From NCBI RefSeq assembly GCF_000614065.1, contig NZ_BAKG01000001.1, positions 124,001 through 188,000 of the forward strand: a stretch of DNA of 64,000 nucleotides. The letters are read 5' to 3'. Position numbers and translations under genes: made by a program. Each line of letters starts with the position of its first letter. Within the stretch, counting starts at the first letter, position 1. Below the pieces are notes generated by a model. That model was not told the origin of the DNA. It saw only the letters and a program-made list of their open reading frames with translations, and searched no databases. Positions 20,591 to 48,225 of this stretch are shown here, piece after piece. This DNA is from Prevotella dentasini JCM 15908 (GTDB lineage: Bacteria > Bacteroidota > Bacteroidia > Bacteroidales > Bacteroidaceae).

Positions 20591-21652
20591 GGCGTAATGG
20601 ACATTTGGTAGGCTGAAACCTTGTATGCTTGTTAGCAATGGACATTTGGCAGGCTGGATTATCCAGCCTACTTTTTGTATTGAGGGAACCCGTCAATAAA
20701 TTTCTTCTTATTAATATCATTCAACCCGTTGTGATTTAGTAATGCCCTTTTGAGTTGTGCGTTAAATCCTTCCAAACGGTTTGTCGTATAATGTTCAGTT
20801 CAGGATGTTCCTCATAGGTGAAAAGCCATTTGAGATGCGTTCTTATAGCTCGTCTTGCTGTTCTTAGCCTTCTATGCGTATAGGCGGTTTTCCCGGAAAC
20901 CAATACCGTTCTTTCATTGAGAAAATCTTCCCAGTCCTCACACCATTTGTTAAACAGCGATATAAACTCATTTTTCTTCATCGGGAACATACTCTGTACT
21001 AACTTCAGCAACTCTATACCGGCTGACAGATGTGGGTCTTTCGTGAGTACCCTCCTGATTATCTGTAACTGATGAAACTGGCACATCTGTGCAGGATAGG
21101 AGTTTATAGCTTGCAAGAGTCCTGTGTGTCCGTCACATACGACTGACTTTATTTCTGTTCCAAACTCTTCTATATGGTTGAGTCCGTCAAGATAATCCCT
21201 GTTCGTTTCATTCCTGACATACTTGCGATGAAGTATCTTTCCGGATTCCTCATCCATAAACAGCATAACGCCAAGCTGCGGGAGAAGTATGTTGTATCAG
21301 TGATGATGACGGCTGACTCTGGACAGACAGAATTGAAACTGTCCGCTGCCAATGCCAGATGGCAGCGTATTGTCCTCTCTGAACATTTGTGGATAACAGC
21401 CGGTTCTGAAACCGTCCGTCTATCAGTCAGATATTCGTTCCAAAGGGTTATGTCTCTAATGCGCTTTCCCCCTTGGAATTGCTTATCACAGTCCCGGCAA
21501 TAATACATTTGGAAGCCACGCCGATGACCCTTCTTTTTAACATTTGAGCCGTTGCAGCATATACAGTTTTTATTCATAGGTTTTCAAATGCTGCGAAGGT
21601 AATAAATGAAGGACATTAAGAAGGTTTCAGCCTACCAAATGTCCATTACGCC
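20591..21652 (-). mobile_element. IS256-like insertion sequence, copy 1
   Basis: Perfect 32-bp terminal inverted repeats begin GGCGTAATGGACATTTGGTA (20591) and end at 21652. The element is flanked by the direct duplication CAATATTA (20583-20590 and 21653-21660), 8 bp, as expected for the IS256 group. Length 1062 bp. An internal repeat of the end (AATGGACATTTGGCAGGCTG, 20637 on) follows the left inverted repeat. Confidence 0.9.
20668..21577 (-). pseudogene. IS256-like transposase with N-terminal zinc ribbon, copy 1 (frameshifted)
   Basis: Starts at 21577 with a zinc-ribbon-like segment (CICCNGSNVKKKG, YYCRDCDKQF) and a helix-turn-helix, then an IS256/MULE-type catalytic domain (IITDTTYFSRS, VVCDGHTGLLQAI, MCQFHQLQIIRR). 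Compared with copy 2 at 47.2 kb it lacks one A at about 21272 (SFGVMLF becomes SLALCCL) and four bases near 20791, where NIPNTTNRLEGF is lost. The intact C-terminus would end at 20668. It is not functional as read. Confidence 0.8.
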
Positions 21653-32811: not shown

Positions 32812-32896
32812 GCCCAGATGGCGGAATAGGTAGACGCGCTGGTCTCAAACACCAGTGGAGTAATCCATCCCGGTTCGAGCCCGGGTCTGGGTACCA
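32812..32896 (+). tRNA. tRNA-Leu (anticodon CAA), integration target
   Basis: Acceptor GCCCAGA / TCTGGGT, anticodon arm CTGGTCTCAAACACCAG with CAA, a long variable arm (class II tRNA), T-arm CCCGGTTCGAGCCCGGG, and an encoded CCA. Its last bases, CGGGTCTGGGTAC, recur at 46148-46160 at the far end of the mobile element. Confidence 0.95.
32882..32894. repeat. Left attachment-site repeat
   Basis: CGGGTCTGGGTAC in the T-arm/acceptor end of tRNA-Leu, identical to 46148-46160. The tRNA itself stays whole. Confidence 0.85.
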
Positions 32897-32994
32897 AGAA
32901 AAAAGCTAAGTAGTTTGATTACAAACACTTAGCTTTTTTGTTATTTTATAAATGTTCCCAAAATGTTCCCAGTCAGCATATAATCAAATATCAA

Positions 32995-33594
32995 TTATTT
33001 ATATCTACTAATAGTCCATACTTGATCCTTAGCATCATATTTGATCATATCTCTGTAGACTGGTAATAATTGAAGAGCAGAATCTATTTGTGGTGCAGAT
33101 ATCATATAAACATTACCTTTTTTTTGAAAACTAATAGGATAATTTCTTGTAACTAACCCCAATTGTATTCGATAATGCTCCTTTAGGTTTTCTATATTAC
33201 TACTTTTTTCCTCTAATGAGTCTTTTTCTTTCTCTAATTGATGATATGTAACAGGTTTTCCATTTATCGTACGATATGTGATAAAAGAATTAGAGTCTGG
33301 TTCCATAAATTTCTTAAAAAGAGAATCTCTATATTCTAGCAATTCCAATTTCGATTCTAACGCATCATTTCTATCTAATAAAAGAATATTTCCAGTGATT
33401 AAAACTGCAAAGATAATTAGTAGTAAAAGCCAAAGATTTGCTAATCCTCTTTTTGTTTTTTCATGGATTTCAATTTTTTGTTCAAGTTTATCCATTGTTT
33501 CTAGCACTCTATCATTCTTTGCTAAGTCAGTTACTCTTAGTTCATCCTTGAGTTCTGAGACTATTGCTTTAATCGTTTGTTCATTATTTTTCAT
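32995..33594 (-). CDS. Membrane-anchored coiled-coil protein of unknown function
   Basis: A 199-residue protein: about 50 charged helical residues (ELRVTDLAKNDRVLETMDKL), one membrane segment (ANLWLLLLIIFAVLITGNIL, about 52-71), a coiled coil (LEKEKDSLEEKSSNIENLKE), then a C-terminal soluble domain. No family is recognised. It overlaps the gene at 33584 by 11 bp, so both are translated together. It is the last gene of the element, between the restriction genes and the left attachment site. A defence or membrane-sensing role is a guess. Confidence 0.65.
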   Translation of the reverse strand: MKNNEQTIKAIVSELKDELRVTDLAKNDRVLETMDKLEQKIEIHEKTKRGLANLWLLLLIIFAVLITGNILLLDRNDALESKLELLEYRDSLFKKFMEPDSNSFITYRTINGKPVTYHQLEKEKDSLEEKSSNIENLKEHYRIQLGLVTRNYPISFQKKGNVYMISAPQIDSALQLLPVYRDMIKYDAKDQVWTISRYK

Positions 33595-33901
33595 ATTTGC
33601 CTTTACTATGAAGTTCTGGGAACTTAAGATTATTAATTTGATATTTTAATTCAAGTCGTTCCTGTTTAAGAATATCTATTTCTGACCTATAATTTGTCTC
33701 TCTGTCAATCCATTTTATCCATTGCTCTTTCTCTAACTGGAGTTGATCACGAGTCATTTTGGTTTCTTGATAGAAACATCCAGTTTTAAAACCAACAGAT
33801 AGAATAATCAATATTATCGCAAGCTTTCCCCACAAACTGTCTAAAGCTGAAAGAAAACTTTCTACCCATTTTTCTTTTTCTCGTTGTTTTTTTACTGGCA
33901 T
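33584..33901 (-). CDS. Single-pass membrane protein with coiled coil, unknown function
   Basis: A 105-residue protein with a basic N-terminus (MPVKKQREKEKWVESFLSAL), one membrane helix (LAIILIILSVGFKTGCF, about 27-43) and a charged coiled-coil tail. It is coupled to the gene after it by an 11-bp overlap, and both have a similar layout (helix, membrane segment, coiled coil), so they may form one complex. Not recognised. AT-rich like the rest of the element. Confidence 0.6.
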   Translation of the reverse strand: MPVKKQREKEKWVESFLSALDSLWGKLAIILIILSVGFKTGCFYQETKMTRDQLQLEKEQWIKWIDRETNYRSEIDILKQERLELKYQINNLKFPELHSKGKYEK

Positions 33902-33980
33902 AAATAAGGTGTTTCTTTCATTTTATTTTCCATTTGAATTTACATATCCATATCTCAAATTTACTTGAAAAACATATATT

Positions 33981-34355
33981 TTAAGCATTATACCCTCTAT
34001 CAAAATCTTCCCTGAAAGCATTAGGAATAGTGTCCAAAATATCCTGTCTATTCTGATGTTTCCCCATGATAAAATTATGATTGTCTACAAGATTCTGTAT
34101 AAATTCATTGCAATTTAATCTATTTATGATATTCCCAACGCCTGCTGATAGAGAAAAAGTTCCCATCCCAGTTGGAAGATTTGAAATATATATTTGTATA
34201 CGATTCTCACTCCCCCAAGCTCCCTGCTCTTCGTTATGTTCCAAAACCAGAGATGTACTTCCATCTGATTTAGCAAGAAAACCTAAGAACTTATAATACT
34301 CATGTTCATTAGCAAATTGTATTTGCTGATTTTTTCCAAACGATTGTTTATACAT
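33981..34355 (-). CDS. Hypothetical protein coupled to the HNH nuclease gene
   Basis: A 124-residue soluble protein (FANEHEYYKFLGFLAK, AWGSENRIQIYISNLPTG, SLSAGVGNIINRLNC). It starts inside the nuclease gene (8-bp overlap), which implies translational coupling and a shared task, perhaps a partner or inhibitor of the nuclease. No family is recognised and there are no membrane segments. Confidence 0.6.
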   Translation of the reverse strand: MYKQSFGKNQQIQFANEHEYYKFLGFLAKSDGSTSLVLEHNEEQGAWGSENRIQIYISNLPTGMGTFSLSAGVGNIINRLNCNEFIQNLVDNHNFIMGKHQNRQDILDTIPNAFREDFDRGYNA

Positions 34356-35541
34356 AGTTGTATGCTTTAATTAATTCTTTCTTTATTACATCAAAACTTG
34401 TGCCAATACTAATATTCGTATCTAATCCTGTATTAATGATAAAAACAAAAGACTCTTTGCGGTAGTATTTATCACCAACTATCCTCAACGATGCTTCAAT
34501 CGTATCTGCCTTAGCTAAAAGACAGGTAAGTTGATAATCACGATTTATCTCCTGAGTTTTATTATTAGGATGGGCTTTTGTAAAGTGTTGCGTTGCTGTA
34601 AGCTTTATCAGATTTTCTAAATAATGTGCCAGTTGCGGAAACTGAGATTTTGGAAAAATATGATGGACTTGCGTTGCTTCACCATTTCCCCATTGGTCAT
34701 GAACTTCACTTTCTACTTGTATTTTTCGCAATAGATTCATAGCTTTTTGAACATAATAAGCATTGTATGCTTCCTGCTGCTCAACATCCTGTTGCTCTTG
34801 TGCCTCCTGCCGAGTAATGGATTTATCTTTATTTAGGTCTCTCCAATTCTTGCGATTGTACATTAAATCCGAGAATGTAAAGATATATTTTGACATATGT
34901 CCTTTTTCAGTTCCATTAATCTGATTTTCTACAGCATATACATTTAATATCTTACTAAAGATACGATGTACTTCAACTTCTGTATTTATAGCTGTATGAC
35001 CAATTACAAAACGGTCATATCTACTTTTTAACTCTTGGAAGTCTGCATTCGTAGCTTTTCCCTGCAAACATTTATCTTTGAACGCATCAAAATATCGGAT
35101 AATCCCACTATCCGAAAGAACCTTTTGCAGATAGCAATAGAGGAAATTATATGTATTTCTTTCTCTTTGCGCTATATAGTCAAGAATATCCAAATTAGCA
35201 ACACGATAATAATTTGTTCCCGATCGCTTTTCTATCTCCAACACATGGGCATAAGCAAGCATTCGGAGAGGCTGTTGTATAAACTTATCATACTCATGAC
35301 GAGCTTTGGGATTAGTAGGTAATGGCTTATTGAAAATAGCTCTTGCGTTCTTTATGAAGTATTGAGCATCCCAAATGTTGGACACCGTAAACTCATTGTC
35401 AACATCTATTGTATTGATGATGCAATCAGCAATGAAGCAAACAACATCAGGAGTGCATTTCTGATCCATAAAACGTGCATCTTGGGATTTACGTACATCT
35501 AAATCAAAGCTACTAAGATACTTTATTATATTTTCTCTCAT
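34348..35541 (-). CDS. HNH-type restriction endonuclease (putative)
   Basis: A 397-residue protein with an HNH active site near its C-terminus: QVHHIFPKSQ (H293, H294), ENLIKL (N310) and H319/H324 in TATQHFTKAHP. The first 280 residues are mainly helical and presumably recognise DNA. It lies 5 bp after the methyltransferase gene. Pairing an HNH nuclease with C5 and N6 methyltransferase activities recalls type IIS systems of the Eco31I group, where an asymmetric site needs a different mark on each strand. That parallel is inference; the specificity is unknown. Confidence 0.75.
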   Translation of the reverse strand: MRENIIKYLSSFDLDVRKSQDARFMDQKCTPDVVCFIADCIINTIDVDNEFTVSNIWDAQYFIKNARAIFNKPLPTNPKARHEYDKFIQQPLRMLAYAHVLEIEKRSGTNYYRVANLDILDYIAQRERNTYNFLYCYLQKVLSDSGIIRYFDAFKDKCLQGKATNADFQELKSRYDRFVIGHTAINTEVEVHRIFSKILNVYAVENQINGTEKGHMSKYIFTFSDLMYNRKNWRDLNKDKSITRQEAQEQQDVEQQEAYNAYYVQKAMNLLRKIQVESEVHDQWGNGEATQVHHIFPKSQFPQLAHYLENLIKLTATQHFTKAHPNNKTQEINRDYQLTCLLAKADTIEASLRIVGDKYYRKESFVFIINTGLDTNISIGTSFDVIKKELIKAYNYV

Positions 35542-35546
35542 TTCAT

Positions 35547-38104
35547 CTATCCTTTAAGTTTTCCAAAAAAGAAAACAGAGTTGTTGTCAATATTAAGTGA
35601 ACGTGTACCTAAATTTCTTGCTATTGCATAGAATTTAGTAAATTTATCTGTGGCATAAAACGACAGGTCTTCTTTTGTTATAACCTCATCATTATTTGTC
35701 AAAGTAAGAATTGCAACAGAACCATCCGCAATGCACCTTTGGGGAGAAAGCATGCTCGTGGGTTATATGTCAAGTTTGGGAGCAGGACACAATTTGTTTT
35801 GTTCAGAAACTTACTAACATCCAGCCCATCTAAATTATCCACATAACTGTCATATTCTGGAATATCTATAATTTGATTATCACCAATATTCCTTGACTTG
35901 AGAACTCTTACCTGACCTTTTCCTTTTGTCAAAGACTTGGTTATTACTCTATCTCTATATGCTTTGAACACATTAAACTCCATTTTATCTGCAACTTGAT
36001 CAAAATCTTTGTTACGATATATTATCCAATAAGGAAACTTTGTATCCATAAGGTAGGATTGCTGTTGTACTACAACTTTTTCCGTAATGTAAGATTCGAC
36101 AATAGTCTGAGCAGGCTTTCGCTGTGTTTCAATAATAAAGTTTATAGTTTCAATCTTAACATTCTTGAATCCTTTTTCCCCAAAATCAATGATATGAGAA
36201 ACTCTTTTTTTACTCATTAGTTGACGAGTTTTATTAAACTCAGGAGCATTTATCAAACTTTTAGGTACAATTAATGATACTACATTTCCGATTCTCATAG
36301 ACTTTTCTATAAAAAAAGAAAATATGTTATTTGTATCTGTATTGTAGGCTTCAGCTTTATAGACAGATAGTAACTCTTTTTCCTTTGTCAGTTTTTTATA
36401 AGGAGGATTTCCAACTACCACATCATACTTTTTCTCAAAACAATAAGTAAGAAAGTCTGTATGAATGTAATTTATGTGTACATTATTAGGAACATTTACA
36501 TGATTGACTAAAGCCTTAAGTACTTCAAGGCTGTCATTATCAATATCCACAACATCTATGTTTACAGAGGGAACGTCCGCATACTTTTGAATAAGCATGG
36601 GAATAAAGTTGCCCACACCAACAGAGGGTTCCAAAATATCGATTTCTGTAAAGCCTTTCGCTTCTGGCAAGTTCTCAACTACTGAAAAACAAATATCCTG
36701 TCGTGTATAATATGCTGCGTTATTATTTCTATTAGCATTTGATAATTCTGCAATTTTTGAGAGTTCACTGAAACGGTATCTTGTAGATTTATTGATAAAA
36801 TCTACAAGATTTATTTGACTATCAAGATGCTTCCGCTCTATCAAATCCTTAATATCTTGTTCTGTCATATTGATACGACAGGAAACTTTGGATATTTTAT
36901 GCGCTATCTGTCTAAATATGATAGTAGGAACAGCTTCGCCCAAATTTTGCCTTATATTCATTTCTTCCTTTTTGAGGAATGTTTCTTTTTCTTTTATTGG
37001 CAAATTGTTCAGTTCGTCAAAAGGAATATCACTCCATTGAAAAGATGCAGGAACCGACATCATAAGCATCACTTCACGAATACTGAAAACCCGATTATCC
37101 ACAGGATGAACAGTATTTTGACTTGCCATAATATCATTACGAGTATGAATACATGGTGCAACTTTATCCCAACATTGACGTGTATATTTGTCCCCATTCT
37201 TCTGAGCATTATAAACTACAACCCCATTCTTTATAGTATGGGGAATCTTGGTTATGTCAGTATTGTCAAAAGCTGATTGTCCTTCCTTTATATCGGCAAT
37301 CCATGCTTCCATTCTTGGCGAGTATTTCCTAAAATTGTGATAAATATCGGTTTCAGAAATTTCTCCCATAGTTCTTAATGGTGGTAAATCACCTATTATC
37401 TGTCGTAAGGTTCGCTCAGGCTGTCTATCGGGAAATACATCATAAGGGGTAATTTCTCTTAAATCTTTTCTTACCCCAATGACTAAAGTTCGTGTTCTAC
37501 TTGACGGATTACCATAATCCTTAAAGTTCACAACCTTAAACAGCACATTATACAATCCTCCAAGATTCAACTCTATTGCATTTCTAATAGTCTTATCTTG
37601 ACCATCGACATCTGTACAAATGGATGTAAGAAATGCACGGACATTCTCGAATATGAAAAATTTTGGCTGTATTTTGCTAACCATTTTTATAGATTCAACA
37701 ACCAAAGAATTCCTTTTCAGTTCATCTTTCTTTTTATGATTTGCCACAGACATACCCTGACATGGTGGTGTCGCAACGATTACATCTAAATCTTTTACAT
37801 TAAAATTTCGTCTCCACAAATCCAATTCTTCAAACACTCGACCTTGAGTTTCTTTTTGGGTCATATCCCCACAAATATACCCACTATCGTATGCACATTT
37901 TTGATTGTATTTTTGTATTTTTAGCCTACGTTCAAGTAGTTCTACCGTAGCAATACAATAGAAATTTTCTTGTTTAAAACCATAACATCCTACCCCAGCA
38001 CTACTGAACAAACTGACATATGTTTTCAGTCCATATGGAGAACGACTTTCTGCAACTATAGCGGGTTCCTGATTTATTGGATTATATTTCTTTTGTAACA
38101 TCAC
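35547..38104 (-). pseudogene. Fused C5-cytosine / N6-adenine DNA methyltransferase (frameshifted near the end)
   Basis: The N-terminal half is a Dcm-type C5 methyltransferase: motif I SLFSSAGVGCYG (31-42), catalytic cysteine 115 in ATPPCQGMS, ENV at 153-155, and SSRTRTLVIG (motif VIII). The C-terminal half is an N6-adenine enzyme: ILEPSVGVGNF (about 490-500) and GNPPYK (565-570). The frame is lost near 35736, where GGG reads as GG; the last 60 residues (CIADGSVAILTLTNNDEV ... FFFGKLKG) follow in the next frame to 35547. Total about 852 residues. It protects host DNA from the HNH nuclease. It overlaps the XRE gene by 4 bp. Confidence 0.85.
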
Positions 38105-38391
38105 ACTATACGCTTTAAGTTTTCTTTGACAACAGATAAAACATTTATAGCGACTTGTTTCTCTGGTGCCACAATATCGGAGACTTTATCGGCAAGCCAT
38201 AACACTATCAAGTCTTCTTGCTTGACATGAAATAGCCCCGACAGGATACATACTTGTTCTCTTTTAGCTTTCCTTTCTCCTTTTTCTATTTTGCAATAAG
38301 TCGCGGTATCAATATCAAGCGCTGCTGCCAAATGGCGTTGTGGCAGCTTATATTGCATACGCAACTCTTTTATTCGTTCAGAAAATAGCAT
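38101..38391 (-). CDS. XRE-family helix-turn-helix controller protein
   Basis: A 96-residue protein whose N-terminal half is an XRE domain (MLFSERIKELRMQYKLPQRHLAAALDID..., CKIEKGERK). It stands at the head of the restriction-modification operon and overlaps the methyltransferase start by 4 bp (ATGA type). In restriction systems, such C proteins time expression so that methylation precedes cutting. Its C-terminal 35 residues are helical. An operator could not be pinned down in the 130-bp AT-rich gap before it. Confidence 0.85.
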   Translation of the reverse strand: MLFSERIKELRMQYKLPQRHLAAALDIDTATYCKIEKGERKAKREQVCILSGLFHVKQEDLIVLWLADKVSDIVAPEKQVAINVLSVVKENLKRIV

Positions 38392-38517
38392 ATTACCTAC
38401 TTACGTCTTGACATTATTTGGCAAAATTACGATTTTTATTTGAGTAATCTGTGATTTTTCTTGTTTATTTTAAGTAAAGGTCGAAAGTTTTACCTCTACG
38501 CCTCTACTATCACAATT

Positions 38518-39168
38518 CTACTCATTTAATTTCTTCTGCATCAGGCTATCTGCCTTTTGCTTCAAATCCATATCGTAACCATTAGCTTTTTCCTTAATTA
38601 ACTTGATTACCTTTTCATTTCGATGAATGTCAAACACATCATTGAGCCATAAGATTTCCTTGGAACTACAGCCCCTCCACACTCTGATGATACGGAATTT
38701 CAAGGCATCATCCTTATATTGCAGTTTGCTTTGCCATAAGGAGTAATTACCAACCAAAGAAACAAGACAAAGGATAGACACTGCCACCACAGTAGTAAAG
38801 ACTTTCGACGACTTTATGTCAAAGCTATGTCTGTGAAGCAGTTCCTGCGGTATTGGATGCTCTTTCTGCTCCTGCCACTCGTGCAGCATAGTCATGACAC
38901 TTGCCACCAACTTGTCCATGGATTTAGCCTCCTCGTCCTTGATGCGCACTTGTACACCAATATACTTGTTAATCACGGCTTTTATCCGCTGTTCATACTG
39001 ATTGAGCAATTCCAGTTCCTGTTGGTCGTCACGTTGTGCAGGTGTGGAGGGAACAGGGAGAGAAACAGAACTGTTCTCCTTTTCTTTCAGCTCCTTCAGT
39101 TCCCTGTAAATTGTCTCCAACTTGTTCTTGATTTCCTCAAAGAGGACAAATGCATTATTATCTGCCAT
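38518..39168 (-). CDS. Mobilization-region membrane protein with coiled coil
   Basis: A 216-residue protein beginning MADNNAFVLFEEIKNKLETI with heptad-like leucines, a single membrane segment (FTTVVAVSILCLVSLVGNYS, about 122-141), then a charged helical tail. It starts 2 bp after the relaxase stop. Proteins of this outline follow relaxases in Bacteroides mobilizable elements; it may tether the relaxosome to the membrane. No catalytic motif. Confidence 0.65.
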   Translation of the reverse strand: MADNNAFVLFEEIKNKLETIYRELKELKEKENSSVSLPVPSTPAQRDDQQELELLNQYEQRIKAVINKYIGVQVRIKDEEAKSMDKLVASVMTMLHEWQEQKEHPIPQELLHRHSFDIKSSKVFTTVVAVSILCLVSLVGNYSLWQSKLQYKDDALKFRIIRVWRGCSSKEILWLNDVFDIHRNEKVIKLIKEKANGYDMDLKQKADSLMQKKLNE

Positions 39169-39170
39169 AG

Positions 39171-40091
39171 TTATAAATGTATTTTACGTTTTTTCTTTTT
39201 CTTCTTTTTGTCAAGTGTGTTGTAAATTTCCGCAGGGACTGTGCCATGAGTCTGAAACAATCCCAATCCTCCTTCTATGAGTTCGTTGACTATTTCGCTC
39301 GTAGCATCTGCAACATTAGATATAAGATTTGTCGTTCCTTGCATCTGCTGTTCGTGTTCCCTATTGTTCTGTTGCAGGGCAAAGTCAATCTTGGAATAAC
39401 TGAAACTCCTGTCCACCTTCGAGCCATTGAAATGATAACCGTTCTTTTCGAAGATAATACCCTGAACTTCCTGCGAGTTGCCTTTGTACTTGAAACGGAC
39501 ATTAATATCTTGTTCTTTCAAGTGAGTAAGTAAGGTTTTCCAATCTCTGCACCGAGCTATTTCTGCTTTCAATGCCTGATAGACTTCATACTTAGTCTTA
39601 TCAGGTTCTTTCAAGCGGTATTCCTTGACATTCTCCTTACCACCGGCGAAGTACAAACCATATTTGGCAGTCAGTTCCTTGCAAATCTTCTCGCTTCTGA
39701 ATCGGTCGTTACGGTCAGAAATGGTCTTGCCGTTATTGTCTATCCGATTGAATGCGATATGAATGTGCGGATGTTCCTTGTCGAAATGGCGACCGATGAT
39801 GTACTGAGTATCTTTTATACCCATCTTCTCCATATACTCATGCGCCACTTTCGCCATCCACTCATTGCTGAGTTTGGGAGAGTCCTGTGCGGAGAAGCTC
39901 AGGGAGATATGTCCGACAACCTTACTTACTCGTGGATTCAGTTCCGTCTGGTCAATGAAACTTTGGACAATATGGCTGATACTGTCTGTTCTCACGCCGG
40001 AACAGTCTATAAGCTCCGTTCCTTTCTTCGGGTCAAGGATGTAATTGATGACACCCTTGAAGCCCGAACCTTTCCTTATCTTGGCGATCAT
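39171..40091 (-). CDS. Relaxase / mobilization nuclease
   Basis: A 306-residue relaxase of the MobA/VirD2 type. It starts MIAKIRKGSGFKGVINYILD. The triple-histidine metal site is HFDKEHPHIHIAFNRID (about 101-117), and a nucleophilic tyrosine probably lies in the N-terminal motif (NYIL). It nicks one strand at oriT and leads it into the recipient. It overlaps mobC by 4 bp. The C-terminus ends in a lysine-rich tract (KKKKKKRKIHL). Intact. Confidence 0.88.
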   Translation of the reverse strand: MIAKIRKGSGFKGVINYILDPKKGTELIDCSGVRTDSISHIVQSFIDQTELNPRVSKVVGHISLSFSAQDSPKLSNEWMAKVAHEYMEKMGIKDTQYIIGRHFDKEHPHIHIAFNRIDNNGKTISDRNDRFRSEKICKELTAKYGLYFAGGKENVKEYRLKEPDKTKYEVYQALKAEIARCRDWKTLLTHLKEQDINVRFKYKGNSQEVQGIIFEKNGYHFNGSKVDRSFSYSKIDFALQQNNREHEQQMQGTTNLISNVADATSEIVNELIEGGLGLFQTHGTVPAEIYNTLDKKKKKKKRKIHL

Positions 40092-40441
40092 CTTCGTATC
40101 ATGTTTAGGATTTCGTCAATCTTGCCAATGACGATTTTGTGGAAAGGAGCAATGGCATGAAACCCTTCCGCATTGGCACGATGTGCCAACTGGTTGAGAT
40201 TGTTTGCCATGCCACACAGCTTGCGAATGAAGTCTGCCTGCTCTACGGTCAGCCGTTCTATGACGTTTCCTTTCTCAAGAACTTTTCTTACAAACTCACT
40301 TATGGATATTCCTGCGCTTTTGGCTTTACCTTTGAGCGTGTAGTAATCCTCTGTGGTAAGTTTTACCGTGATGCGGTATTTCTTCTTTTCGGCTGCGCCT
40401 TTGGTCGGGCGCCCGCCTTTGTTGTATTCTGATTTAGTCAT
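40088..40441 (-). CDS. mobC: MobC-like relaxosome accessory protein
   Basis: A 117-residue basic protein starting MTKSEYNKGGRPTKGAAEKK at 40441; a longer in-frame reading to 40588 would run through the oriT-like palindromes. A ribbon-helix-helix-type segment (YRITVKLTTEDYYTLKGKA, ISISEFVRKVLEKG) precedes MANNLNQLAHRAN, the hallmark of MobC-type proteins. It binds oriT and helps the relaxase open the strands. Translationally coupled to the relaxase (4-bp overlap). Confidence 0.82.
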   Translation of the reverse strand: MTKSEYNKGGRPTKGAAEKKKYRITVKLTTEDYYTLKGKAKSAGISISEFVRKVLEKGNVIERLTVEQADFIRKLCGMANNLNQLAHRANAEGFHAIAPFHKIVIGKIDEILNMIRR

Positions 40442-40508
40442 ATTTGTTTCTTTAATTTGTTTTGATGGAGACCGACGGGATAATCCTCTGCACCGAGTGG
40501 CAGGAGGT

Positions 40509-40550
40509 GGAGCAAGTGGTTTTGGTATGCCCAAAACATAAACTTGCTCC
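40509..40550. other. Candidate origin of transfer (nested inverted repeats)
   Basis: GGAGCAAGT (40509-40517) pairs with ACTTGCTCC (40542-40550), and inside it GTTTTGG (40519-40525) pairs with CCAAAAC (40531-40537). The structure sits just upstream of mobC, where oriT lies in related elements. No nick site can be read with certainty. Confidence 0.5.
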
Positions 40551-40584
40551 CCGAAAAACAGATTATGCCAAACTATTCCTGTAA

Positions 40585-41514
40585 TCATAGCTTAATCCCT
40601 TTGGATTTCTTGATTTCAGCTCTCTCTGAATGCTTGGATTCAGCACACAGATACTCATTCAAGTCCTTGTAGCCATTATATAAGGTTGATGCATCCGTAA
40701 CAGATTTTCCCAATTCCTTTGATAATTGTAGATAGGCATTTCTTCCTGCTTCGTCATTGTCCAAGAAGCATTGAACGCTATCATAGCGTGATAATCTCTT
40801 TGCAGCCTTATGAATATTCGTTACAGAATTGAGTATCAAATAATCCTGTTCCCGCAGTCCTGTACTCTGCGGATTCTTCTTCCTTTTCAGCGTCATGAAT
40901 GACAGAAAGTCCATAAAACCCTCGAAAAGAAAACATACTTTCTTCGGCTCATCGGCACAGAAATGACTGATGTCTTTCGGTGCAATGCAGCCCTTGAAAA
41001 ATGGGTTACGCAATTCATACCCACCTGCTATGTTGGGAAAGCCTATACCGAAGTAATGCTTGCCATTGAAATCGTAATGCAGTTCCTTACAGACAGAAGC
41101 TGCCACCTCCATATCAATACACCTGTCATCGAGATACCTTATCAAAGCAGGATGTGACAAATGAAGTACCTGCAAATTCTCAAAAGAGTTTGTTCGCTGT
41201 ACTGACTTAACATCTGCAAATGGTGCAGAAGATATCGGCATACAATGTGGGGCATCACTCGCTATCTTGCGAATGAGATATGAGACATCAGAGGATTTGT
41301 AAAGCAGTTCTGCCAAATCTATGATGTTTCCACCTTTGCCAATACCGAAATCATACCACTGGTTACGCTCGGTGTTTACCTTGAAAGAAGCATGGTTCTC
41401 CTGACGAAAGGGAGAAAGATACCACAGGTTGTTACCTTGTTGCTTGGTGGGAGAATATCCCAAACTCGCAAGAACTTCCTGCAACTTTATCGCTTTTATT
41501 TCTTGTATATTCAT
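40585..41514 (-). CDS. Primase with CHC2-like zinc finger and Toprim domain
   Basis: A 309-residue protein starting MNIQEIKAIKLQEVLASLGY at 41514, preferred over an upstream ATG at 41568. The N-terminal part (LWYLSPFRQENHASFKVN, NQWYDFGIGKGGNIIDLAELL) is a CHC2-type primase zinc-binding fold, though the cysteines are not conserved. The C-terminal part has a Toprim domain (VCFLFEGFMDFLSF; VQCFLDNDEAGRNAY). It probably primes replication of the excised element. It stops about 35 bp before the oriT-like site. Confidence 0.82.
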   Translation of the reverse strand: MNIQEIKAIKLQEVLASLGYSPTKQQGNNLWYLSPFRQENHASFKVNTERNQWYDFGIGKGGNIIDLAELLYKSSDVSYLIRKIASDAPHCMPISSAPFADVKSVQRTNSFENLQVLHLSHPALIRYLDDRCIDMEVAASVCKELHYDFNGKHYFGIGFPNIAGGYELRNPFFKGCIAPKDISHFCADEPKKVCFLFEGFMDFLSFMTLKRKKNPQSTGLREQDYLILNSVTNIHKAAKRLSRYDSVQCFLDNDEAGRNAYLQLSKELGKSVTDASTLYNGYKDLNEYLCAESKHSERAEIKKSKGIKL

Positions 41515-41649
41515 ATTATAATGAAGTTGGATGGTTTGAAAAAGTGATGATTTGATGAAAATGCACATAATCGTTTCATAACAAACAAGTTACCTGTTCA
41601 TCATGGTCTCATCATAAAACTTACCAAAAGATAAAGAACAACTCACATT

Positions 41650-41982
41650 CTATGATATTGTCATTTCGACTTTTCTTGATTTCTCTATTTTGGATTCTCT
41701 GTTTTCTATAAAATCACGACATCGGTTTTTGAGTCTCTCAATACCTCGATAGAATTTGTTTAGCAAGTTGTACTTTTGTGCGGACAAAAGTATGTTGCCG
41801 ACTACACGAAGTCGGGAAAAGGATTCACAAATTCCATCCCGATACCTGCCAAAAGAAAAACTAAATTCATTTCTCTTTTGGGCAGCAGTAAAGTTCGCTT
41901 TCATCATTCTTTTACATTGATGAGTGGAAAGATGAATCGAGTAGATGTTGTCAATCAATCTGTTATATATATTTTTCATCAT
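41650..41982 (-). CDS. Possible small basic protein
   Basis: A 110-residue basic reading frame (MMKNIYNRLIDNIYSIHLST ... RKVEMTIS), 16 bp after the helicase gene and 135 bp before the primase start. It is crossed by two strong hairpins (41771-41815), which makes coding less certain. No family is recognised. It may be a chance frame over a structured replication or regulatory region. Confidence 0.35.
   Translation of the reverse strand: MMKNIYNRLIDNIYSIHLSTHQCKRMMKANFTAAQKRNEFSFSFGRYRDGICESFSRLRVVGNILLSAQKYNLLNKFYRGIERLKNRCRDFIENRESKIEKSRKVEMTIS
41771..41815. other. Twin hairpins between helicase and primase genes
   Basis: TACTTTTGT-gcgg-ACAAAAGTA (41771-41792) and CCGACT-acacga-AGTCGG (41798-41815) are two perfect stem-loops 5 bp apart. 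They could be a replication origin, a protein site or an RNA structure. Confidence 0.5.
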
Positions 41983-41998
41983 TTCATCAAAATAATGA

Positions 41999-43189
41999 TT
42001 AAATGTTCGTGAGCTGTTCTTTGGTTACGGTGTAATATCTGCCTGTCCGCTTGATGGGTGAGTAGTTCCGCAAGCTGTTGTAGTCTATCTGATAGGTTAG
42101 ATACGTCAGCGTATTGGGAGCAGGAATGAGTTTCCATATATCCTGCACTATCCTACGAACTTGGCTTTTGTCAGCCTTGCATCCTGTGTTGTTCAGCAGG
42201 CACACCATGTCATTGATACAGAATGAAAACTCGGTAACAACCATTTGCTCCATTACCTCCAAACTGAGTTCTGACATTTCCAACTCAATCTTATTGCGGT
42301 TGCTGCGGATAATGCGCTGCAAGGCTGGTGTAAAGGTCAGCTTGGGTGCAAACCACATACGGCTTTCCTTGTGAGTGGACAGGGTACGGTGCTGCAGAAA
42401 ATAGAGAAAGGCAGGGATTTCTGCTTTCAGTTTTTGCAGAAAGTCGGTATCATCGTTTTTAAGACGCTCTATCTTCCTTACCCAATATCGGGTTTCTCCC
42501 ACGTCTATGATGACAGGGAGTAACTCGTTATTGGAGCACAGCACGAACTTGGCAAAGAAGGAGATTTCGTCTCGGTCTTTGCCTTTTGCTTCCACCTTAT
42601 AGGAGAGCGTTGTGCTAAGATTTTTCAATCGTTCACTGTCTTCCCTGCGGTTGAGCAGAACTTCATCCACAACAATGAGCAGCTTTCCTGCCCAATCAGC
42701 ATTGAATTGGCTACGAAAATCCTCGTTAGTGTTGAAAGTTACATTGTTCTGGAAAACGGCTTTAAGGAAATTGAGGAACGTACTCTTCCCTGTATTGCGT
42801 TCCTCTGACACCATCAGGAGGATGGGTAGTTTCTGCACGGGTTGGAGATAGAGCAACTGCAAATAGTCCATACCCAACTCGTATTGTTCCCCGAAGATAT
42901 GCCTTATCAGGGAATCAACGTTCGGAAATTCACCCTCTTTTGGTTGGTGTCCTATCGGCTCGTAGAGATTGAGGAACTTGTCAATTACAGGCTTGTAGTT
43001 GACATGATCAGGAACAGTGCAGAAACCATCGTACTTAGGGACAGTGGCTATGAAATCCTTGCCATAGTCTTGCCGTAGCGTTTCATTGTTCCACACGATA
43101 CGCTTCTTGGCAAAACCGCCATTGATGCGTGGTTGGTTCACGATCTTGTATAAGGTCGTGCCAACACGGATAAATTCTTCTTGTGCCAT
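41999..43189 (-). CDS. Primase-helicase family ATPase (DUF5906/VirE-like)
   Basis: A 396-residue protein with a superfamily-3-like ATPase core: Walker A SEERNTGKSTFLNF (about 128-141), Walker B KLLIVVDEV, and a downstream sensor region (FVLCSNNELLPV). The N-terminal and C-terminal parts are unassigned. Such proteins drive replication of Bacteroides mobilizable elements after excision. It starts 3 bp after the HTH gene. Intact. Confidence 0.8.
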   Translation of the reverse strand: MAQEEFIRVGTTLYKIVNQPRINGGFAKKRIVWNNETLRQDYGKDFIATVPKYDGFCTVPDHVNYKPVIDKFLNLYEPIGHQPKEGEFPNVDSLIRHIFGEQYELGMDYLQLLYLQPVQKLPILLMVSEERNTGKSTFLNFLKAVFQNNVTFNTNEDFRSQFNADWAGKLLIVVDEVLLNRREDSERLKNLSTTLSYKVEAKGKDRDEISFFAKFVLCSNNELLPVIIDVGETRYWVRKIERLKNDDTDFLQKLKAEIPAFLYFLQHRTLSTHKESRMWFAPKLTFTPALQRIIRSNRNKIELEMSELSLEVMEQMVVTEFSFCINDMVCLLNNTGCKADKSQVRRIVQDIWKLIPAPNTLTYLTYQIDYNSLRNYSPIKRTGRYYTVTKEQLTNI

Positions 43190-43192
43190 AAG

Positions 43193-43507
43193 TTAGATAC
43201 TTGGAGTATAGTTTCCTAAAATTTTCTGCACATCAGACATTTTATATCTGACTTTGTTACCTACCTTTATTGGCTTTAGGTAGTTCTTTTTCCCCCAATG
43301 CCATAAGGTTGCATCACAGACACCACAGAGTTGTTTTACTTCTTCCTTTGAAAGAAAGCGTTCTTTGCGTGCTTCTTCAACGATAGTCGTTAGTTCGTCT
43401 TTTGCACGATTGATAAGATTGTTAGAGAAAGCCAACAGGTCCTCTCCTGACACTTCTAATCGCACATGTGCATTAGAACTTTGAATAATTGATAGAATAT
43501 CGGTCAT
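43193..43507 (-). CDS. Excisionase-like helix-turn-helix protein
   Basis: A 104-residue protein. Its C-terminal half is a MerR/excisionase-type winged helix: FLSKEEVKQLCGVCDATLWHW, then KKNYLKPIKVGNKVRYKMSD. The N-terminal half is helical. In this element family such proteins steer excision and replication. It is 3 bp upstream of the helicase and 173 bp downstream of the gene at 43681. Intact. Confidence 0.8.
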   Translation of the reverse strand: MTDILSIIQSSNAHVRLEVSGEDLLAFSNNLINRAKDELTTIVEEARKERFLSKEEVKQLCGVCDATLWHWGKKNYLKPIKVGNKVRYKMSDVQKILGNYTPSI

Positions 43508-43680
43508 ATTTTTTTAGACTCCACCAGCTTGTTTGACTTTCTGTTGTCGGTGGGTTTGCAAACAAAAAGCCGCCACCTCGCTTGAGATGACGACTGCAAA
43601 TTTATATCGTAAAATGACTGATCTTCAACGATTTTGCAAACGCTTAATTCACATAAATATTAAACGAATTAAACGAACTC

Positions 43681-44604
43681 TTATTCCGTTAAAAAGGATT
43701 TGATTTCATTGATGGCAGCACGGTCTTCGCCTTTATCCATCAGCCTTATTCCTGTCTTCCCTATGGCTTCAGAAAGATTTTTGTTGGCTTTCTGAACGCC
43801 TCGAAGCCCTACCAAGCGAATATTATAATGGTCAGATAATGCTCTGTAGAATGGTGCAATATCACATTCTCTGAGCAAGTTTGCTTCTTCTAAAGCTATT
43901 TTGAGATAAATAATATCTTTCTCTTTTGGCTTAGTCAATAGCCGATTCCTAATCTTTTCAAGTAGTTTTTCCTTATTTTCTATCTTTAAAAGTTCTTCTA
44001 AAGTTCTCTCATCCTTAACTCTGCCACGCCTATTATTGATTGCCTTTGAATCCTCATTATCAGAGAAGTTTTCTTCCAAAGCAGATTCGACAAGTCCGTC
44101 GGAACCTATAGATTTCTGGTATTGTTGAAACTCTTTCCAATCTTCCTTTGTTCTTTCCCCTGATGATACACTTCTGAGAATAATGTATTTTATCATCAAA
44201 GAAAGCAGCCATTTGTGCAATCGGTTGGTCTTGCTGTTTTGAATAAGGCTCTCACCATGTTCTACCATACATTCATAACTACGACCAAAATACAACCATG
44301 CAAGCATTGCTGGAACTATTGATTTTCTATCAGTATTATGAAATTCATGTATCAGGCGTTCTGCAAGGTCTGAATTAGTTAGCATATTTTCCAAAGAAGA
44401 AAAATCCTTTAATGTATCGTTGAACATCCTTTTCTTGACCTCGTCTTTGTATTTCGGTACAATCTTTACGACAAGCATAAAGACTTTCTGAAAACCAGCA
44501 CTATCTTTACGGTTCATTTCCTCAACAAATGAGCAATATTCCTTCGGATGCGTATCAAGCCAATCTTTTATAAGTCGCTTAAAATCTTCAAAACTTTCTT
44601 TCAT
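43681..44604 (-). CDS. Hypothetical protein next to the integrase (possibly DUF6043 family)
   Basis: A 307-residue soluble helical protein, rich in Lys and Glu (FKRLIKDWLDTHPKEYCSFV; SDNEDSKAINNRRGRVKDER). It follows the integrase gene by 8 bp, so the two are co-transcribed. Proteins of this size beside integrases in Bacteroides elements are sometimes assigned to DUF6043; I cannot confirm that from the sequence alone. No enzymatic motif is seen. Confidence 0.6.
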   Translation of the reverse strand: MKESFEDFKRLIKDWLDTHPKEYCSFVEEMNRKDSAGFQKVFMLVVKIVPKYKDEVKKRMFNDTLKDFSSLENMLTNSDLAERLIHEFHNTDRKSIVPAMLAWLYFGRSYECMVEHGESLIQNSKTNRLHKWLLSLMIKYIILRSVSSGERTKEDWKEFQQYQKSIGSDGLVESALEENFSDNEDSKAINNRRGRVKDERTLEELLKIENKEKLLEKIRNRLLTKPKEKDIIYLKIALEEANLLRECDIAPFYRALSDHYNIRLVGLRGVQKANKNLSEAIGKTGIRLMDKGEDRAAINEIKSFLTE

Positions 44605-44612
44605 CGTTGGAT

Positions 44613-45950
44613 TTAGTCTAAAAGTTTTACCAAGTCTTTCTTCATTTCTTCATCAATATCTCTATAACGCCTAAAGGCTTTGCTCCCTTCCTTGTGCCCT
44701 GATAATGCAGAAACCAGATTGGGGTCTTTTACTTTTTTATAGATATTGCCAATGAATGTGCGTCTTGCCAAATGGCTACTTGCTACCTCATATATTGGTC
44801 GCTTCACCTCATCATGAGTCAAAGGGTCTAAGATAGTTACTATCCTATCTACACCTGCTTCTTGAAAAATGCGTTTGATAGCTACATTATACTTTTGTTC
44901 TGATATAAATGGAAATAACTTTGCGCCCTCGTAGTCCTTATAGCGAGCTAATATTGTCTTTGCTTTGCTATTCAAGGGTACTCTAACGGTTACAGGATTA
45001 CCCTCTCTGGTCTTTTTAGGGATATATTCTATAGCCTCATTGACTATGTTTCTTTTGGTCAGCCGATATAAATCGCTAACTCTGCAGCCTATTAAAGTTT
45101 GAAAAATAAAAATATCTCGTTGAATAGCAAGCTGTGGGTGTTCAGATAAATCTGCATCAAATATTTGGTCACGCTCATCTAAGGTAATATAATAAGGCGT
45201 TCCATAGGTACATTCGTCTAATGGGAAGTCATCAAATGGACGATTGGTTGTGATTTTCTTATCGTAGCACCATATAAAGAATGTCCTGATACGAGAAAAC
45301 CTATCTATCAAAGTATTCTTGCCTCTTGGTAACGGTACTCGCTTTTCAGGAAAAGCCTCATACAACTTTGGGTATTTCTCATAATAGATATATTCATTTT
45401 CAAAGAAATCCCACATGTCTCTCAATATATCAGCAGTCACATCATCAACATCAAGAATGAAGTCGCGACGACCACGTTTAGCAGTTCTGACATACATTTC
45501 ATATCGAGCCAAAGAGCGCTGAATAACTTTAAAGTTCTTCACACGTACCTCAGATAATTTATGTTCAACAAGAAATTTAGCAAAGAGTTCCAAAAGTTTA
45601 GGCTTATTTTCCAGCATCAACTCTTCCTCCGTCTTATATCGATTAGGATGATGATATTTGTCGATAATCATTGCCAACCATTCATTATCAGCTTCTGCCG
45701 TATATTGCTCGGTAATCGTTGACACAATATCTTGTACACTTTGTGCCAAATGCAATTTATTCTCTTCTGAAACCAGTGCAACACGATCCTTGTACCCTTG
45801 CTTCTCGCTACTCCAATGGTTAGGATTTATAACAAGTTCACTTGCAGCCTTAATATCTTTCTTACCATCACGCAAACGAAAATAGATAGTTGCCATACTA
45901 TCTGTGTCGTTCTTTTTTGCCGTCTTGCGAATGAATGCAGTAACCTTCAT
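44613..45950 (-). CDS. int: Tyrosine site-specific integrase
   Basis: A 445-residue recombinase. The N-terminal arm-binding domain starts MKVTAFIRKTAKKNDTD, a core-binding domain lies around residues 110-215, and the catalytic domain has arginine in IGCRVSDLYRL, the H-x-x-R box in SSHLARRTFIGNIY and the tyrosine in KAFRRYRDID. It recombines the element with the 3' end of tRNA-Leu. It lies 198 bp from the right attachment repeat, as expected. Intact. Confidence 0.95.
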   Translation of the reverse strand: MKVTAFIRKTAKKNDTDSMATIYFRLRDGKKDIKAASELVINPNHWSSEKQGYKDRVALVSEENKLHLAQSVQDIVSTITEQYTAEADNEWLAMIIDKYHHPNRYKTEEELMLENKPKLLELFAKFLVEHKLSEVRVKNFKVIQRSLARYEMYVRTAKRGRRDFILDVDDVTADILRDMWDFFENEYIYYEKYPKLYEAFPEKRVPLPRGKNTLIDRFSRIRTFFIWCYDKKITTNRPFDDFPLDECTYGTPYYITLDERDQIFDADLSEHPQLAIQRDIFIFQTLIGCRVSDLYRLTKRNIVNEAIEYIPKKTREGNPVTVRVPLNSKAKTILARYKDYEGAKLFPFISEQKYNVAIKRIFQEAGVDRIVTILDPLTHDEVKRPIYEVASSHLARRTFIGNIYKKVKDPNLVSALSGHKEGSKAFRRYRDIDEEMKKDLVKLLD

Positions 45951-46147
45951 AATCGTTGTTTTTTAATTCTATTGCAAAGATACTAATTTGTTCCCAAATT
46001 GTTCCCGTTCATCCTAAATTTATTTTTATTGTTTTCAATAAGAATAAACACAATATTCTTTTATACTGTTGATTATAAGGTGTTTATATTTAGTTGTGGG
46101 ATTTAATAGAATTAATTGAAATGTTCCCATATTTAATATTTCAAATG

Positions 46148-46160
46148 CGGGTCTGGGTAC
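46148..46160. repeat. Right attachment-site repeat
   Basis: CGGGTCTGGGTAC, an exact copy of the tRNA-Leu 3' segment at 32882-32894; it marks the right end of the element. Confidence 0.85.
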
Positions 46161-47157: not shown

Positions 47158-48225
47158 GGCGTAATGGACATTTGGTAGGCTGAAACCTTGTATGCTTGTT
47201 AGCAATGGACATTTGGTAGGCTGGATTATCCAGCCTACTTTTTTGTATTGAGTAACCCGTCAATAAATTTCTTCTTATTAATATCATTCAACCCGTTGTG
47301 ATTTAATAATGCCTTTTTGATGTGTGTGTTAAATCCTTCCAAACGGTTTGTCGTATTAGGAATGTTCAGTTCAGGATGTTCCTCATAGGTGAAAAGCCAT
47401 TTGAGATGCGTTCTTATAGATCGTCTTGCTGTTCTTAGCCTTCTATGGATATAGGTGGCTTTCCCGGAAAGCAATACCGTTCTTTCATTGAGAAAATCTT
47501 CCCAGTCCTCACACCATTTGTTAAACAGCGATATAAACTCATTTTTCTTCATCGGGAACATACTCTGTACTAACTTCAGCAACTCTATACCGGCAGACAG
47601 ATGTGGGTCTTTCGTGAGTAACCTCCTGATTATCTGTAACTGATGGAACTGGCACATCTGTGCAGGACAGGAGTTTATAGCTTGCAAGAGTCCTGTGTGT
47701 CCGTCACATACGACTGACTTTATTTCTGTTCCAAACTCTTCTATATGGTTGAGTCCGTCAAGATAATCCCTGTTCGTTTCATTCCTGACATACTTGCGAT
47801 GAAGTATCTTTCCGGATTCCGCATCCATAAACAGCATAACACCAAAGCTGCGGGAGAAGTATGTCGTATCAGTGATGATGACGGCTGACTCTGGACAGAC
47901 AGAATTGAAATTGTCCGCTGCCAATGCCAGATGGCGGCGTATTGTCCTCTCTGAACATTTGTGGATAACAGCCGGTTCTGAAACCGTCCGTCTATCAGTC
48001 AGATATTCGTTCCAAAGGGTTATGTCTCTAATGCGCTTTTCTCCTTGGAATTGCTCATCACAGTCCCGGCAATAATACATTTGGAAGCCACACCGATGAC
48101 CGTTCTTTTTAACATTTGAGCCATTGCAGCATATACAGTTTTTTATTCATAAGTTTTCAAATGCTGCGAAGGTAATAAATGAAGGACATTCGGAAGGTTT
48201 CATCCTACCAAATGTCCATTACGCC
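47158..48225 (-). mobile_element. IS256-like insertion sequence, copy 2
   Basis: Ends GGCGTAATGGACATTTGGTA (47158) and its inverse (to 48225) match copy 1 at 20591-21652. Flanking octamers differ (CATTATTA left; AAAAAACA right), so there is no target duplication. Length 1068 bp. Confidence 0.88.
47235..48150 (-). pseudogene. IS256-like transposase, copy 2 (frameshifted at the start)
   Basis: Same protein as copy 1. From 48080 leftward the frame is open: YYCRDCDEQFQGEKRIRD, TDTTYFSRSFGVMLF, CDGHTGLLQAI, and an intact end (NIPNTTNRLEGFNTHIKKAL). The first 20 codons are out of frame because ATGAAT is followed by six A where copy 1 has five, giving a stop after 13 codons. Translation could restart at the internal ATG at 48080 but would lack the first zinc-ribbon half. 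Confidence 0.8.

Follow-up and report, generated by a model that had tools for sequence, protein, structure and literature searches.

A 64,000-nucleotide stretch of Prevotella dentasini JCM 15908 DNA (the window) carries what we judge, with a probability of about 0.88, to be a Type IIS restriction-modification cassette of the HpyAV type, carried on a mobile island. To judge from protein homology its relatives are HpyAV and Hin4II, and a system of this kind has already been described. The assignment draws on gene content, homology, catalytic spacing, island structure and site avoidance, each established in the present analysis. The genes form an operon, C–M–R, on the minus strand, encoding a helix-turn-helix controller (C), a cytosine-C5 plus adenine-N6 methyltransferase (M) and an HNH nuclease (R); Pfam domains and coordinates bear out this three-gene restriction set, which an earlier, sequence-only reading had proposed while overlooking a fourth gene, X (33981–34355). 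The first gene, C (38101–38391, minus strand; 96 aa), encodes a putative XRE/HTH_3 controller, scoring 26.0 bits with Pfam HTH_3 against a cut-off of 23 and matching PADLOC Control_protein (E 1.6e-5). Its control role is a guess, according to which C would probably time expression on the island's entry into a new cell. Residues C115 and N566 of M and the 4-bp C/M overlap, as previously noted, are valid given a GTG start of M at 38104; an alternative ATG start at 38101 would leave a 1-bp overlap with C (counted by hand).

M, assigned by Pfam and PADLOC, is an 801-aa open frame (35699–38104, minus strand) with a C5 domain at about residues 28–410 and an N6 domain at about 415–786. Pfam DNA_methylase matched residues 29–358 (5e-38) and Eco57I residues 548–644 (7e-17), and the PADLOC MTase_II model PDLC03277 aligned residues 28–786 onto its positions 8–756 of 823 (E 1.4e-219). 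Residues 1–786 are 47.3% identical over 748 residues to M of a Helicobacter pylori-like locus (L127). The frame is broken near the end of M in the assembly: the 801-aa frame stops at 35699, and the conserved C-terminal end lies out of frame at 35547–35753 (minus strand), a stretch that is in frame in four close Prevotella relatives (L007–L010), in which M is intact at 852, 852, 855 and 851 aa. Programmed frameshifting was ruled out, since M of these four relatives reads through in one frame. Prevotella strains whose copy is intact include P. bivia DSM 20514 and P. denticola NCTC13067. The description of M as a single polypeptide with both domains therefore stands as to the fusion but not as to one open frame in the assembled sequence, and the reported 5-bp gap between M and R was measured from the second frame (ORF 35547–35753), not from the 801-aa frame.

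R (34348–35541, minus strand; 397 aa) was identified as an HNH nuclease by its catalytic residues and by PADLOC REase_II (residues 3–377, E 3e-105). Within the HNH domain, at about residues 251–353, the four catalytic residues H293, H294, N310 and H319 are invariant across 45 aligned sequences and spaced identically to those of HpyAV (293/294/310/319 against 294/295/311/320, with 16- and 9-residue intervals). HpyAV is an HNH nuclease (H294, H295, N311 and H320) with the specificity CCTTC 6/5, accompanied by a fused C5/N6 methyltransferase, M.HpyAV (PMC2816704, PMC3936762). Against five Helicobacter-family homologues R shows 43.5–45.5% identity; two of these are broken genes and were compared piecewise, and an intact one gave 45.5% of 378. 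As in HpyAV, R follows a C5 plus N6 methyltransferase gene that runs the same way, its frame in the window being broken near the end. The predicted structure of R (model pLDDT 89.2) gave no Foldseek match reaching E 0.001, PDB sequence searches returned nothing below E 0.1, and the structure nearest to the HNH part was ScoMcrA (Z 6.0, the best second-look Z).

By analogy with HpyAV, the C5 half of M would place m5C on CCTTC and the N6 half m6A on GAAGG, so that each strand of the asymmetric site would carry one mark. R would bind unmodified CCTTC, presumably through its N-terminal half, and would cut a few bases downstream through its C-terminal HNH domain, 6/5 as in HpyAV; methylation, cleavage and offset are all carried over from that system. 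In the M.HpyAV methylome, m5C was found at 1198 of 1304 CCTTC sites and m6A on the other strand at 1252 of 1304 (PMC2816704, PMC3936762). The writing of two base marks on an asymmetric site by one protein is settled biology, and the novelty claimed for it in the window falls to this precedent, in which both marks were measured. The Neisseria locus NEIS0295, which we infer from locus number and species to be the 42% homologue of Chan's Table 2, has been assigned a GAAGG m6A mark (98.7–99.9%). Comparison of the intact M of L007 with that of L127 (47.3% identity overall) gave 53–60% in the presumed C5 TRD and 42–49% in the presumed N6 TRD, the TRD positions having been assigned by inference.

Recognition of CCTTC/GAAGG is supported indirectly, and mostly at the family level, by this presumed TRD conservation and by site avoidance, since the pentamer is the most depleted by ratio in the family's own M and R genes. 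Under synonymous shuffles, which hold proteins and codon usage fixed, these genes contain 138 sites against 387 expected (ratio 0.36), with 81 of 85 loci below expectation, three above and one equal; the loci are related and the counts are not independent. The 15 one-base neighbours of the pentamer have ratios of 0.78–1.23 in the same genes, and its eight one-base extensions 0.21–0.45. Taken separately, M genes (116 sites against 289.2 expected) and R genes (22 against 93.9) each rank it first by ratio, with third place by z-score in R, and the window's own M and R contain one site against 4.2 expected. Among all 512 pentamers it ranks first in 81 pooled cassettes, which hold 155 sites where 322.3 are expected, and third in the window's island, with 9 where 20.7 are expected. 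A weaker depletion extends to the flanks, where it ranks fifth of 512 in the DNA (749 sites, 955.2 expected) and, in the genes, 26th by ratio but fourth by z-score (526 sites, 712.9 expected). CCTTC was known from HpyAV before the avoidance test was made, and because the test places this already known site first by ratio among all pentamers, it suggests a cheap route to site prediction for uncharacterised restriction-modification families. In those parts of the literature on site avoidance that were available, host and virus genomes are treated and an account of restriction-modification genes themselves was not found; a word search of a Prevotella intermedia methylome paper returned no match.

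The depletion bears on whether the Prevotella branch might consist of HpyAV-like proteins that recognise a different site. Identity between R and its Helicobacter-family counterparts is only about 44%, and Chan et al. allowed a site differing by 1 bp for two environmental homologues. However, across 41 cassettes (the window and loci from L007–L048) CCTTC/GAAGG is second of 512 pentamers with a ratio of 0.48, against 0.87 in the flanks; none of its one-base neighbours approaches such depletion in the pooled set, the lowest standing at 0.78, and the presumed TRD stretches are conserved about as well as the remainder, which together make a changed site highly improbable. Even harder to credit is an Alw26I/Eco31I/Esp3I-like (GTCTC-family) system with its two methyltransferases fused. 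The two different marks would suit it, and the N6 half matches TIGR02987 (E 9e-15), but it scores 54.4 bits where the cut-off is 353.5, over 129 residues only; kinship was rejected on this cut-off and coverage, which leaves Alw26I/Eco31I/Esp3I related, distantly, to the N6 half alone. R matched no NCBIfam model (0 at E up to 1), in a library that probably includes one for the Alw26I/Eco31I/Esp3I-family nuclease. The near-full-length PADLOC matches, the catalytic spacing and the avoided pentamer all favour HpyAV. The best reading is of the kind proposed from the sequence alone, a Type IIS-like restriction-modification system whose asymmetric site would bear a single mark on each strand, but its nearest relative is HpyAV/Hin4II, not Eco31I.

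A different matter is whether the window copy is decaying or modification-dead, with M truncated and R silent or inactive, a state compatible with the HpyAV-type explanation, which concerns the kind of system. The frame break does remove the conserved end of M, but R and X are open frames, the draft assembly (41 contigs, 85.85% complete) can contain sequence errors, and R, if active while M is not, should be toxic; we consider decay unlikely, though a good deal less so than either change of identity.

Among known systems, HpyAV of H. pylori 26695 (R hp0053, M hp0054; PMC2816704, PMC3936762) shares with the window the catalytic spacing, the fused C5 and N6 domains, the order M then R in one direction and the predicted site, CCTTC; the H. 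pylori-like R of L127 is about 44% identical to the window's. The window system differs in its mobilizable island and in the presence of C and X, and a word search of the HpyAV paper's text found no control protein, third gene or accessory gene. That paper lists ten homologous systems, one of them from Bacteroides stercoris: the putative homologue Bst43183ORF2897P/M.Bst43183ORF2897P (Table 2), from the same bacterial order as the window, with an R of 390 aa and a fused M of 856 aa (PMC2816704). Hin4II of Haemophilus influenzae is an isoschizomer and homologue of HpyAV but encodes M1 (387 aa) and M2 (445 aa) separately (PMC2816704), an arrangement also present in L006, L067 and L082. MhoVII of Mycoplasma hominis, in the accessible part of its description (PMC12898733), likewise joins two methyltransferases, each acting on its own strand of an asymmetric site, but m6A is the product of both halves (GATG/CATC), which that paper assigns to other methyltransferase classes.

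The mobilizable element claimed earlier is real. The cassette sits on a 13,279-bp (13.3-kb) island inserted in tRNA-Leu, bounded by a 13-bp direct repeat whose copies lie at the 3' end of tRNA-Leu(CAA) (32812–32896; repeat 32882–32894) and at the far end (46148–46160). On its minus strand are a relaxase (39171–40091; Pfam Relaxase 9e-40), a NikA/MbpA-like mobilization protein (40088–40588; Pfam NikA-like 1e-17), Toprim_2/CHC2 primase-like, DUF5906, HTH_17 and DUF6043 genes (40585–44604) and a tyrosine integrase (44613–45950; Pfam Phage_integrase 8e-8). The HpyAV-type family, in whose M and R genes it is precisely CCTTC/GAAGG that is avoided, is wide. In genome contigs 212 relatives were confirmed by a patterned scan, 70 of 90 loci have a fused M longer than 700 aa, and a viral scan found no relative with a single R sequence and four with an R alignment. 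According to the part of PMC12118455 available, a GAAGG m6A motif occurs in more than five gut species, on which the family may bear.

Less expected is X (33981–34355, minus strand; 124 aa), a conserved protein recognised by its recurrence beside R, whose stop it overlaps by 8 bp. X would be an optional accessory gene of the cassette: of 90 loci 35 carry it, 34 of them at most 103 bp from R, and it is scattered on the R tree (34 with, 51 without and 2 not judged, in 87 rows). A phylogenetic block was rejected: X requires 25 changes where shuffling gives a mean of 26.9, and 136 of 500 shuffles were as low. Where X is absent, same-strand frames of at least 60 aa starting within 200 bp of R formed no recurrent cluster at E 1e-5. 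The window's protein has no family in Pfam, NCBIfam, PADLOC or PHROGs, and 27 aligned relatives gave single-member library matches only, among which the PcrA/UvrD tudor match agrees with an additional C-terminal domain present in two long forms. A PDB sequence search returned nothing below E 0.1, Foldseek gave no match at E 0.001 against either the PDB (best E 0.21) or the viral BFVD, and among the entries listed by a literature search no similar restriction-modification accessory was apparent.

The predicted structure of X (model pLDDT 93.1) is LAGLIDADG-like (best Z 6.5, 92 of 124 residues, rmsd 3.0), although a Z below 8 may reflect a common arrangement, and the 50 fold matches listed are homing endonucleases and homing-endonuclease inteins, which are LAGLIDADG proteins. 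X would share this predicted fold with enzymes such as I-DmoI but lacks a conserved catalytic acid where the motif helix ends (at D31 just 15 of 29 homologues have Asp, in a register set by eye) and a LAGLIDADG Pfam match (none among 28 members). X also stands beside other restriction systems, in an AlwI-type locus and, as a weak match, in an Eco57I/ResIII-type locus. We guess that it is an accessory DNA-binding protein, and tentatively, at somewhat less than even odds, that it founds an undescribed restriction-accessory family: a degenerate LAGLIDADG-like DNA-binding protein beside mechanistically unrelated nucleases (HNH HpyAV-type, AlwI-type and the Eco57I/ResIII locus), easily gained and lost, helpful to restriction or its control, and dispensable. 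As a recurrent optional gene common to different restriction systems, X is a testable unknown. Several results run counter to this reading. Eight other genomes have an X match, one being a decayed fragment (L132 in G1193) with no restriction-modification genes within the 13 kb examined; that of G759 is weak, with E 8e-7 in one search and 8e-11 in another. X has an internal stop in G838 and G1253, is a short frame in L022 and L041, and in L056 lies in two pieces on the opposite strand, 791 bp away. In the plasmid and phage collections every record with X (2 and 1, respectively) contains R as well.

The window carries genes for a putative controller (C, an HTH gene), a methyltransferase (M) and an HNH nuclease (R) on the minus strand at 38391-34348. 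A fourth gene, X (33981-34355, minus strand), has an 8-bp overlap with the R stop. Pfam places a DNA_methylase domain at residues 29-358 of M and an Eco57I-type N6 methylase domain at 548-644; the sequence-only reading of one polypeptide with C5 and N6 domains holds for the domains, but the M frame is broken near its end. R gave nothing above the Pfam cut-off, an HNH match being seen only at E 0.094. Against PADLOC, nearly the whole length of R matched REase_II (E 3e-105) and nearly the whole length of M matched MTase_II PDLC03277 (E 1.4e-219; residues 28-786 onto 8-756 of 823).

HpyAV of H. pylori is described as an HNH Type IIS nuclease of specificity CCTTC(6/5), with catalytic residues H294, H295, N311 and H320, each tested by mutation, and a methyltransferase that is a true C5 and N6 fusion (PMC2816704). 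The methyltransferase gene hp0054 alone is credited with both marks, m5C at 1198 of 1304 CCTTC sites and opposite-strand m6A at 1252 of 1304 (PMC3936762). Ten homologous systems, including one of Bacteroides stercoris, appear in Table 2 of PMC2816704; by locus number and species, we equate its Neisseria homologue with the N. meningitidis methyltransferase NEIS0295, for which m6A at GAAGG is given as 98.7-99.9% (PMC7973814). The HH/N/H residues of the window R (293/294/310/319) have spacing identical to those of HpyAV (294/295/311/320) and are unchanged in 45 of 45 aligned sequences. Residues 1-786 of the window M are 47.3% identical over 748 residues to M of L127, a related locus whose gene order presumably matches that of H. 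pylori. The window R is 43.5% (92 residues) and 44.7% (226 residues) identical to the L127 R, itself broken, and 45.5% identical over 378 residues to the intact R of L131, a locus from the same bacterial family as L127. The window system is a further member of the already known HpyAV-type kind.

The 801-aa M frame stops at 35699, with a short tail absent from four close relatives, P. amnii, P. bivia, P. ihumii and P. denticola (L007-L010; R identities to the window 93, 93, 90 and 83%). These keep a single M frame holding both parts, and the ending that they retain is found in the window in a separate ORF (35547-35753). The host genome is a draft assembly with one R copy, and the break may be either a sequencing or assembly error or a genuine mutation. 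The P. denticola locus is collinear with the window from C through to the tRNA (74% DNA identity), and the P. bivia locus has a separate C5 methyltransferase (7191-8261 of L008) in the slot after R, overlapping the R stop.

The proposal that the system sits on a mobilizable element was borne out: a 13-bp repeat bounds the 13,279-bp island on both sides, one copy lying at the tRNA-Leu 3' end, and the island's products include a tyrosine integrase, a relaxase, and NikA-like and primase-like proteins. G+C is ∼31-43% in this region versus mostly 45-57% in the surroundings. Two small genes lie between X and tRNA-Leu (32995-33901); inspection by eye suggests a hydrophobic stretch in each. Two similar copies of a gene judged by eye to be transposase-like occur at 20736-21577 (two overlapping frames) and 47235-48080 (one frame, 281 aa).

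In genome contigs, one patterned scan yielded 212 confirmed relatives. The best 80 of these, four from viral contigs, five from plasmid and phage records and the window itself made up the 90 loci examined, which omit the own-genome duplicate L005 and include a few near-identical loci (for example L003, L065 and L087). By the names on their records, the genome-contig relatives come from Bacteroidales, Flavobacteriaceae, Ignavibacteria, Patescibacteria, Gamma-, Alpha- and Epsilonproteobacteria, Clostridia, Streptococcus and one Pacearchaeota archaeon, among others. M is fused (>700 aa) in 70 loci, partial in 8 and scored as split or short in 12, three of which (L019, L031, L064) have the two domains together in one short frame. 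Ten loci (L017, L018, L022, L023, L024, L025, L029, L030, L039, L060) have M frames of 992-1012 aa, ∼150 aa above the usual length in the window's family, the excess seemingly N-terminal; a Pfam search with the first 200 aa of the L024 M returned no family. In L089, from a viral contig, a second R-family nuclease-like frame (5016-6260) follows R and X.

The recognition site CCTTC/GAAGG was predicted from HpyAV and then checked by site depletion. The island holds 9 sites against 20.7 expected (third most depleted of 512 pentamers; none of 500 third-order simulations gave so few), and the rest of the window 165 against 184.9 (rank 52). Eight relatives taken singly ranked from 8 to 148. L003, L005, L006, L018 and L087 (duplicates, near-duplicates or own-genome copy) were removed from pooled and shuffle tests, and a length filter additionally left 81 pooled cassettes, in which the site ranked first (155 versus 322.3 expected); in their flanks it ranked fifth (749 versus 955.2). 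We also permuted synonymous codons gene by gene, which leaves the protein and its codon usage unaltered. Ranked by ratio, the site was the most depleted among 511 for the 90 M genes (0.40) and among 499 for the 86 R genes (0.23, where its z-score placed it third), and this held for both orientations; 319 flanking genes gave 0.74 (rank 26 by ratio, 4 by z-score). M and R combined had 138 sites against 387.4 expected, with the 15 one-base neighbours at 0.78-1.23 and all eight one-base extensions at 0.21-0.45. By locus (n=85), 81 fell under expectation, 3 over and 1 equal, with 21 site-free, counts that are not independent trials because the loci are related; the window M and R have one site versus 4.2 expected. 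Host genomes are known to avoid Type II sites, asymmetric ones included (PMC4687349). Outside 32882-46160 the most depleted pentamer was CCAGG/CCTGG (4 versus 61.1 expected), with several others strongly depleted, hinting at another restriction history of the host.

The predicted R structure (pLDDT 89.2) falls into two parts. The C-terminal one comes closest to HNH domains, those of ScoMcrA (Z 6.0) and EcoKMcrA (Z 5.5); matches to the N-terminal half are weak and mixed (none above Z 5.1) and include Fur/Zur-type regulators, which are winged-helix proteins. Such matches would be in keeping with separate halves for recognition and cleavage, and on this model the N-terminal half probably recognises the site and the HNH half cleaves. 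By analogy, the C5 domain of M would probably guard one strand and the N6 domain the other; the gene position of C probably suits a control role.

The X family is present in 35 of the 90 loci, and in 34 of these it shares the strand of R, spaced -47 to 103 bp from it; in L068, L078, L079 and L080 it lies between M and R. The distribution of X over the R tree is patchy (present in 34, absent from 51, not judged in 2; 25 changes versus a shuffled mean of 26.9), and X and R identities are correlated (r 0.56, 0 of 2000 permutations, 29 loci). Old company with R and frequent loss, or local gain, could either one account for this history. In genome-first searches, with the window's own genome counted in each, X turned up in 4 of 301 genomes of the family, 4 of 395 of the phylum and 4 of 395 of the class; together these give eight other X-bearing genomes. 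An HpyAV-type R adjoins X in five of these eight, two of the five X genes having an internal stop. Of the remaining three, L119 has X placed after an AlwI-type nuclease that is accompanied by two D12 methyltransferases; L122 has a weak X match amid an Eco57I-type methylase, a ResIII/T5orf172 protein and a GmrSD_N protein; and L132 has a decayed X fragment, with R-M genes absent nearby.

The window X protein matched no named family in Pfam, NCBIfam, PADLOC or PHROGs. Its predicted structure (pLDDT 93.1) matched, among the matches listed, only LAGLIDADG-type proteins (best Z 6.5 over 92 residues), moderate evidence from modelling for a LAGLIDADG-like fold. Across 29 sequences N41, G45 and A46 do not vary, E39, W47, R52, G72, R79 and N81 are almost fully conserved, and position 31 is Asp in 15. 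Our guess is that X is a non-cleaving, DNA-binding accessory protein; as an undescribed accessory gene it merits bench study. One member of the X alignment matched PcrA_UvrD_tudor (E 7.5e-5), and X carries an extra C-terminal domain in L039 (4727-5353) and L089 (4375-5001).
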